Assembly: GCF_036199905.1 (NCBI RefSeq)
Contig: NZ_CP108109.1
Location: forward strand, 4,511,501-4,575,500
Source: Streptomyces sp. NBC_00223
GTDB taxonomy: Bacteria; Actinomycetota; Actinomycetes; Streptomycetales; Streptomycetaceae
DNA length: 64,000 nt
Direction: 5' to 3'
Each line of letters starts with the position of its first letter. Positions within the stretch are counted from its first letter, which is position 1. Position numbers and translations under genes: made by a program. This document shows, in pieces, positions 14,285-16,068 of this stretch. The notes beneath the pieces are model-generated. The model saw only the letters and a list, made by a program, of their open reading frames with translations. It did not search any database and had not been told where the DNA came from.

Positions 14285-14827
14285 ATGAGCGACGACGTAC
14301 GCGCTGCCCTGCTGCGGCACATCAAGGACAAGGCCGTCGTGCACGGCAAGGTGACCCTCTCGTCCGGGATCGAGGCCGACTTCTACGTCGACCTGCGCCG
14401 GATCACCCTGGACGGTGAGGCGGCGCCGCTCGCCGGCCAGGTGATGCTCGACCTCACCGCCGACCTGGACTTCGACGCGGTCGGCGGGCTGACCCTGGGC
14501 GCCGACCCGGTGGCGACGTCGATGCTGCACGCCGCCGCCGCGCGCGGACAGCGGCTCGACGCCTTCGTGGTCCGCAAGGCCAACAAGGCGCACGGGTTGC
14601 AGCGCCGGATCGAAGGCACCGAGGTCAAGGGCCGGCGGGTGCTGGTCGTGGAGGACACCTCGACCACCGGCGGCTCGCCGCTGACCGCGGTGGAGGCCGT
14701 ACGGGAGGCGGGCGGCGAAGTGGTGGCCGTCGCGGTCATCGTGGACCGCGGCGCCGCGCCGAGGATCGCCGAGGCGGGCCTGCCGTACCTGTCGGCGTAC
14801 TCGCTCGCGGAACTCGGCCTGGCCTGA
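14285..14827 (+). CDS. pyrE: Orotate phosphoribosyltransferase
   Basis: Pyrimidine biosynthesis: converts orotate and PRPP to orotidine 5'-phosphate. 180 aa, normal length. It carries the PRPP loop VLVVEDTSTTGGSPLTA (about 121-137), the flexible loop with VVRKANKAHGLQ, and the N-terminal TLSSGIEADFYVDLRR. The reading frame is open far upstream, but the ATG at 14285 gives the conserved N-terminus. It is followed by the parS-containing palindrome and then fba in the same direction. Confidence 0.95.
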   Translation: MSDDVRAALLRHIKDKAVVHGKVTLSSGIEADFYVDLRRITLDGEAAPLAGQVMLDLTADLDFDAVGGLTLGADPVATSMLHAAAARGQRLDAFVVRKANKAHGLQRRIEGTEVKGRRVLVVEDTSTTGGSPLTAVEAVREAGGEVVAVAVIVDRGAAPRIAEAGLPYLSAYSLAELGLA

Positions 14828-14890
14828 CCGGGCGGGACCGGACGCGACGCCGTCAGCGCCTGTCCGACCCCTTCTGACCTGAGGTTTTCC

Positions 14891-14928
14891 GGCCCCCGCG
14901 ATGTTTCACGTGAAACATCGCGGGGGCC
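14891..14928. promoter_or_regulatory. parS centromere site within a 38-bp perfect palindrome
   Basis: TGTTTCACGTGAAACA at 14902-14917 is a perfect match to the ParB-binding parS consensus. It sits at the exact centre of a longer perfect palindrome, with arms of 19 bases starting GGCCCCCGCG, so as RNA it would also fold into a strong hairpin. It lies 63 bases after pyrE and could double as its terminator. Streptomyces chromosomes carry about twenty parS sites clustered around oriC (established); neither parA nor parB is in this window. Confidence 0.93.
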
Positions 14929-15045
14929 GTCGCGCGCCCGCGACACACGGAGGTGGTGTATCGGAGCGAGTCTGGGAAGATAAGGGCGACGATGACGTCG
15001 CCACGCCAGCAGTACCACCCCGCGGAATCATGAGGAGCGGAAACG

Positions 15046-16068
15046 ATGCCCATCGCAACCCCCGAGGTCTACAGCGAGTTGCTCGACCGGGCGAAGGCAG
15101 GCAAGTTCGCCTACCCGGCCATCAACGTCACGTCGTCGCAGACGCTGCACGCCGCGCTGCGCGGCCTCGCGGAGGCGGAGAGCGACGGCATCATCCAGAT
15201 CTCCACGGGCGGTGCGGAGTTCCTCGGCGGCCAGTACAGCAAGGACATGGTCACGGGCGCGGTGGCGCTCGCCGAGTTCGCGCACATCGTCGCCGAGAAG
15301 TACCCGATCACGGTCGCCCTGCACACCGACCACTGCCCGAAGGACAAGCTGGACGCGTACGTCCGGCCGCTGCTGAAGATCTCCCAGGAGCGGGTGAGCG
15401 CGGGCCGCAACCCGCTCTTCCAGTCGCACATGTGGGACGGCTCGGCGGAGAACCTGGACGACAACCTGGCCATCGCCAAGGAGCTGCTGGCCGAGGCCGT
15501 CAAGGCCAAGATCATCCTGGAGATGGAGATCACCCCGACCGGCGGTGAGGAGGACGGCGTCTCGCACGAGATCAACGACAACCTCTACACCACCGTCGAC
15601 GACGCCTTCCGTACGGTCGAGGCCGTCGGCCTGGGCGAGCAGGGCCGCTACCTGCTGGCCGCGTCCTTCGGCAATGTGCACGGCGTCTACAAGCCGGGCA
15701 ATGTCGTGCTGCGCCCCGGCATCCTCAAGGAGCTCCAGGACGCCGTCGCGCAGAAGTACGGCAAGGCCGGCGCGTTCGACTTCGTCTTCCACGGCGGCTC
15801 CGGCTCGACGATCGAGGAGATCAACGAGGCGCTGGAGAACGGCGTCGTCAAGATGAACATCGACACGGACCTGCAGTACGCCTTCACCCGGCCGGTCGCG
15901 GACCACATGCTCCGCAACTACGACGGTGTCCTCAAGGTCGACGGCGAGGTCGGCAACAAGAAGGTGTACGACCCCCGGGTCTGGGGCAAGGCGGCGGAGG
16001 CGGGCATGGCCGCGCGCGTCGTCGTCGCGGCGGAGAACCTCCGCTCGGCGGGCAACAAGTCCAAGTAG
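15046..16068 (+). CDS. fba: Class II fructose-bisphosphate aldolase
   Basis: Glycolytic and gluconeogenic zinc aldolase, 340 aa. It has the HTDHC zinc and metal-binding region (about 102-106), LEMEITPTGGEEDG, VHGVYKPGN with another zinc histidine, and VFHGGSGS with the third. The start has GAGGAGCGGAAACG directly upstream, a strong ribosome-binding site. It appears monocistronic, with the parS palindrome before it and DUF3151 233 bases after it. A GCCCGGCACGGGGGC-type hairpin occurs near 16100-16130 and may terminate it. Confidence 0.97.
   Translation: MPIATPEVYSELLDRAKAGKFAYPAINVTSSQTLHAALRGLAEAESDGIIQISTGGAEFLGGQYSKDMVTGAVALAEFAHIVAEKYPITVALHTDHCPKDKLDAYVRPLLKISQERVSAGRNPLFQSHMWDGSAENLDDNLAIAKELLAEAVKAKIILEMEITPTGGEEDGVSHEINDNLYTTVDDAFRTVEAVGLGEQGRYLLAASFGNVHGVYKPGNVVLRPGILKELQDAVAQKYGKAGAFDFVFHGGSGSTIEEINEALENGVVKMNIDTDLQYAFTRPVADHMLRNYDGVLKVDGEVGNKKVYDPRVWGKAAEAGMAARVVVAAENLRSAGNKSK

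Follow-up and report, generated by a model that had tools for sequence, protein, structure and literature searches.

A chromosomal parS site behind pyrE in a Streptomycetaceae genome, probably nested in a U-poor terminator hairpin

The parS site behind pyrE in this genome raises the question of why its flanks are complementary over a length well beyond the recognition core. The window, i.e. the whole stretch of 64,000 nucleotides analysed, corresponds to positions 4,511,501-4,575,500 of a 7.96-Mb single-contig genome belonging to an Actinacidiphila-like member of the Streptomycetaceae, whose Fba shares 94% identity with its counterpart in Actinacidiphila paucisporea, the top match among 80 named relatives. 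The site is flanked by pyrE (orotate phosphoribosyltransferase, 14285-14827, forward strand; TIGR00336, 120.8 bits against a cut-off of 106.8) and fba (class II fructose-bisphosphate aldolase, 15046-16068, forward strand; NF006628, 479.3 bits against a cut-off of 297), both of which exceed the curated NCBIfam cut-offs. The exact 14-mer core GTTTCACGTGAAAC (14903-14916), one of the genome's 21 canonical parS sites, and the exact 16-mer TGTTTCACGTGAAACA (14902-14917) occupy the centre of a perfect palindrome at 14890-14929, 40 bp in two halves of 20 that are 100% complementary, with no spacer and no mismatch. The preliminary description of this DNA had reported an exact 16-base consensus between pyrE and fba, which is borne out for both the consensus and its neighbours, embedded in a 38-bp (19+19) palindrome at 14891-14928, which is real and proves to be one base longer on each side. 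The core is the sole match in the window with up to three mismatches, where 0.77 such matches would be expected by chance.

The stem covers 63-102 nt downstream of the pyrE stop codon, with the right arm finishing 102 nt past the stop. As RNA, the palindrome forms one hairpin in which the parS core makes up the upper stem and the loop, and the predicted fold of the 65-nt region has an energy of -47.6 kcal/mol (z -7.69), a stability matched by 0 of 200 shuffles. The outer arms extend 13 nt beyond the 14-mer core on either side (14890-14902 and 14917-14929, forward strand), and the symmetric extension score of the site is 13. Across 20,000 random positions in DNA from parS regions, evaluated with a free 7-base half-core as the chance baseline, a score of at least 10 beyond the half-core was obtained at 0.015% of positions. 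The reading favoured here, to which we assign a rough probability of 0.72, is that a chromosomal parS is nested in a U-poor terminator hairpin of pyrE.

Of the 21 canonical parS sites in the genome, three are exact, seven carry one change and 11 read GTTCCACGTGGAAC. Twenty of them lie at 4.036-4.261 Mb, a cluster that also contains the ParB gene (L098:14829-15932; TIGR00180, 211 bits against a cut-off of 58.45), and the site behind pyrE (4.526 Mb) is the outermost of the set, 265 kb past the last of the others. The pyrE-site parS is likewise outermost in all four relatives with complete site lists (G025, G026, G027 and G028), at 162-428 kb from the next site. This position, along with symmetry that is perfect over 40 bp, speaks for an account at the level of DNA, in which the palindrome would serve ParB at an isolated distal site, either through symmetry that strengthens loading or through cruciform extrusion. 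Against this, symmetric extension is limited to six positions or fewer beyond the core at 18 of the 21 sites of this genome, and arms of this kind are also missing at 78 of 82 non-pyrE parS sites in five genomes. The claim that the arms exceed what ParB needs is thus upheld by the 18 sites without long arms; the pyrE site is, however, not unique, as two other sites of this genome are long-armed.

The three long-armed sites of this genome are those at pyrE (20), 4,088,040 (23) and 4,261,374 (26). The second lies between trxA and a convergent ORF, presumably encoding a GNAT protein, for which NCBIfam gave no match, while the third has a sensor-kinase gene on one side and a probable convergent ORF on the other. 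An extension of at least 10 beyond the core was found at 4 of the 82 non-pyrE sites, compared with 0.015% of random positions, and these four comprise the trxA and sensor-kinase sites, one site in G027, also at trxA and with a different arm sequence, and one in G026, lying between a gene of the SCO3897 family and a convergent gene for CCA tRNA nucleotidyltransferase. Three more long-armed sites were measured, one in G042, with a gene pair similar by sequence to that of the G026 site, and two in G079, one beside a similar CCA-type ORF and the other in an ambiguous context. Besides the two in this genome, the same design is therefore present at five parS sites in four related genomes, and long-armed parS appears to be a minority design that is located at gene ends wherever the gene context is clear. 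Among 24 genomes of the class (this genome and G042 included), the 16-mer pattern, which misses some end letters, was found in nine, and the eight sites in the seven non-family genomes of this group showed no comparably long arms by eye, albeit in a small sample.

A canonical parS was found downstream of pyrE in 32 of the 34 genus genomes with the locus, this one included; 35 were searched, and the pyrE-fba locus of G016, a genome 71% complete, produced no usable match. Of 62 named Streptomycetaceae loci, 30 carried the site, as did 23 of another 40 loci from the family, where 2 of the 17 negatives are only partly visible. No parS was detected behind pyrE at any of 18 named non-family loci, at 8 of which pyrE itself was not found nearby. 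Presence and absence of the site switch 10 times on a tree of 135 rows. In Streptomyces NRRL F-4489, four exact parS cores at 24 bp spacing lie between pyrE and fba (L024:2758-2890).

An element acting mainly on fba, through ParB at parS or through read-through of the hairpin, would be compatible with a core that ends 129 nt ahead of the fba start, and ParB has been reported to repress parS-adjacent promoters in Pseudomonas aeruginosa, at parS3 and parS4 (PMC7022226). However, in 11 parS-bearing loci of other genera the gap between pyrE and fba is 1.0-3.1 kb, and parS remains 6-135 nt past the pyrE stop in these loci, evidence against fba control as its primary role. The longest codon-biased ORF within the gap points towards pyrE in 10 of the 11, placing parS between convergent genes; these ORFs we take to be DedA-like. 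Moreover, the region upstream of fba is conserved in part at parS-negative loci too, and control of fba as the main function is the least probable of the alternatives weighed here. The block at 14970-15002 before fba contains GTCTGGGAAGAT and a small hairpin, GGCGACGATGACGTCGCC, and is largely conserved in family sequences whether parS is present or absent, possibly representing a promoter and leader hairpin; a terminator scan called the reverse strand of the same block terminator-like.

Constraint on the outer arms was assessed from a gapless alignment (A1) of 83 distinct pyrE-site parS from across the family, in which the 13 pairs outside the core were tested. Excluded from this set beforehand were L053, the left flank of which is cut at a contig end, and the duplicates L118 and L162, and the four cores of L024 were entered as one site. 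Core invariance in the set holds by construction, because the sites were selected on GTTYCACGTGRAAC; an unselected check, in which the 500 bp upstream of fba were scanned at 80 named loci with as many as three mismatches allowed, recovered the core in 28, each time as the exact 14-mer. Pairing was found in 79.1% of cells across these outer positions, compared with 47.1% in shuffles, and the covariation score was 0.750, against 0.228 in shuffled and 0.156-0.297 in slid controls, a value reached by none of 500 shuffles. Two-sided changes occurred at all 13 pairs, a count that nearly every shuffle also gives. When shared ancestry was removed by restricting the comparison to 41 disjoint sister pairs, pairing was preserved in 88 of 137 two-sided changes (64%), compared with only 14-24% (14 to 27 changes) for partners slid by -3, -2, +2, +3 or +4 positions, while one-sided changes broke a pair in 87 cases and preserved pairing in 33. 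Separate maintenance of the hairpin is supported, since the arms covary above both shuffled and slid controls.

Pairing extends to at least 11 of the 13 positions at 50 of the 83 sites and to at least 9 at 61, with 6 or fewer at 13, and the symmetric arms are poorly paired at 29. The arms therefore appear to change in sequence yet mostly stay complementary around the core, although the rule is not universal. The preliminary description had suggested that ParB binding and RNA folding may be combined in one sequence, and had looked to conservation of the outer arms as a palindrome across species, with uncompensated change counting against it: the arms do covary above controls, in sister pairs as well, but they are not kept everywhere, and uncompensated changes are found in a minority of sites. 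The number of flank-to-flank pairs predicted by RNAfold was set aside in favour of covariation as weak evidence when taken alone, because GC-rich flanks pair anyway; flank pairing of at least 8 bp was seen at 76 of 83 pyrE sites, 47 of the 82 non-pyrE parS sites and 65% of cases with swapped flanks, with median pair counts of 21, 12 and 11.9, respectively.

The same pattern could in principle be a mutational by-product, in which template switching at a short inverted repeat perfects the flanks and mimics covariation without selection. Several sites have perfect arms, and a single event could rewrite a whole arm, as this explanation would have it. Such a process should nevertheless strike every parS, yet extension of at least 10 is confined to 4 of 82 other sites and the extended sites with a clear context are all at gene ends. 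Nor does it predict an excess of G-T over A-C mismatches, out-of-register arms or arms that outlive the core, each of which was observed as set out below, and a mutational origin of the arms is consequently considered improbable.

Mismatches read on the pyrE-sense strand of 48 of the 83 sites, near-perfect ones picked by a strand-symmetric rule, comprised 42 G-T and 14 A-C, against a background of 1.40 to 1 from species-swapped arms (P 0.0072 for the G-T excess). The ratio exceeded 2 at other cut-offs, but the strand bias is modest and suggestive only, because slid controls scatter from 0.35 to 5.8. Out-of-register pairing of the flanks, around or across the core, was present at L159, L174-L176, L180 and L183, indicating that the RNA stem has been kept at these loci and the DNA symmetry has not. 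In the congener L109 the core has decayed to GTCCCCGTGACAC and 15+15 perfect arms remain, while the congeners L110, L113, L119 and L126 retain an intact core with poorly paired arms. Core and arms thus appear to share one sequence but to evolve separately. For the palindrome as a DNA-level feature of ParB loading, this is a difficulty in that some congeners keep the core while the arms decay, and both the out-of-register pairing and the one-strand G-T excess fit RNA better, so that this account is regarded as very unlikely. At L075, L178 and L188 a separate strong hairpin lies beside parS, and another strong hairpin was found nearby at 15 of the 29 poor-arm sites compared with 7 of the other 54 (Fisher P 0.00024); replacement hairpins were rejected as proof, the association being not significant in phylogenetically independent pairs (13 pairs, median P 0.5).

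The predicted terminator is of an unconventional kind. A scan for canonical terminators did not call the palindrome, which has no U run 3' of the stem, and at least three T within the next 8 nt were seen at just 15 of 54 well-paired family sites. Streptomyces terminators have been described as poor in U, their hairpins exceeding those of the other species compared in both length and stability and their 3' UTRs having medians of 66-76 nt (PMC12207403, which lists Term-seq sets for seven Streptomyces species), and a U-lacking, I-shaped terminator class has been reported in S. clavuligerus (PMC8269248). The features of an I-shaped terminator are found at the pyrE site, i.e. a stable GC-rich hairpin near the gene end with compensatory changes in the stem, albeit not in every species. 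Among 51 parS-negative loci (in L173 pyrE was not found, and L185 contains N), 30 had no hairpin scoring at least 9, suggesting that pyrE does not always depend on one; among the rest, the hairpin of several loci lies immediately ahead of fba, and in one it is artefactual, caused by N. Known RNA families were rejected as an explanation, as the top Rfam scores, for gyrA RNA (28.2 bits, gathering score 45) and sodF sRNA (27.8, gathering score 46), fell below the gathering scores and are explained by hairpin shape.

Directly before the hairpin lies the motif TGACCTGAGGTTTT (14875-14888, forward strand), a one-mismatch copy of TGACCTGCGNTTTT. In 47 of the 83 pyrE sites the motif begins 28-29 nt upstream of the core (up to one mismatch to TGACCTGCG), and at this stringency it is present at 50 of the 83 parS-bearing sites compared with 1 of 51 parS-negative loci. 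It is nevertheless not counted as part of the parS-hairpin element, as it recurs elsewhere in genomes, with 132 matches (up to one mismatch) in eight genomes compared with nine for a reversed control. Of the 18 other copies in this genome (L213-L230), 17 fall outside codon-biased ORFs; the copies are mostly intergenic, and parS was absent from the stretches inspected. Further motif loci are L201-L212. At L226 (near 4,301,640) and L227 (near 4,450,460), the motif directly follows repeat-like sequences, which we take to resemble type I-E CRISPR repeats.

Under the nested parS-terminator reading, the 14-bp core would be retained as DNA and bound by ParB as at any parS, while its own inverted repeat would supply the tip of a hairpin in the RNA and the 13 bp flanking it on each side would be kept complementary so that the pyrE transcript stops there. 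RNA polymerase leaving pyrE would accordingly produce a long, GC-rich, I-shaped hairpin followed by few U, and a shared position at gene ends would be the reason for the nesting. The core, the palindrome, its placement, the covariation, the separable loss of the two parts and the recurrence at gene ends are read from the sequences themselves, and from these we infer ParB binding and transcript termination at the site. It is conceivable, although doubtful, that the nesting is itself functional, with the terminator keeping RNA polymerase off the spot at which ParB clamps are loaded and the ParB-parS complex, as a roadblock, making termination sharper on both strands. If so, a subset of streptomycete centromere sites, including the widely conserved distal pyrE site, would be insulated parS-terminators.

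More generally, one short sequence would be constrained in two separable ways, in the core as a DNA centromere and in the arms as an RNA stem, which suggests a reason for the persistence of parS at gene ends. Loci in which the core has decayed and the arms are kept, and those in which the arms have decayed and the core is kept, would represent natural experiments on whether the loading of ParB clamps requires transcription to end at that spot. The distal pyrE parS, located outside the origin cluster and widespread among family members, offers a test target for studies of segregation and chromosome folding.

No paper describing a parS inside a terminator was found in the open-access literature; most subscription papers lie outside that coverage and novelty is unproven. 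A survey of parS in 20 streptomycete genomes exists (PMC8743542), and 24 chromosomal parS have been reported in S. coelicolor and 16-17 in S. venezuelae, in the latter within approximately 200 kb of oriC (PMC4852455, PMC12511625). The set described here resembles these in its exact canonical core, its many sites clustered near oriC and the ParB gene within the cluster, and differs in that the pyrE site is set apart from the other 20 by 265 kb and forms the tip of a 40-bp palindrome at a gene end. As in the U-poor, I-shaped (HS-U-lack) terminators of Streptomyces (PMC8269248, PMC12207403), the hairpin is long, stable, GC-rich, located in the 3' UTR and accompanied by few U; unlike in those terminators, its loop and upper stem correspond to a fixed DNA sequence recognised by a protein, and the terminator is putative here. 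The nearest precedent found is that of the Neisseria DNA uptake sequences, which have been reported to act as Rho-independent terminators (PMC2397512) and in which a DNA recognition motif likewise doubles as part of a terminator hairpin. In Neisseria, however, two copies of the motif make the inverted repeat, whereas at the pyrE site the apex is a single palindromic motif and the stem is made of unrelated arms that change in sequence, and the DNA-level role is uptake in the one case and segregation in the other.
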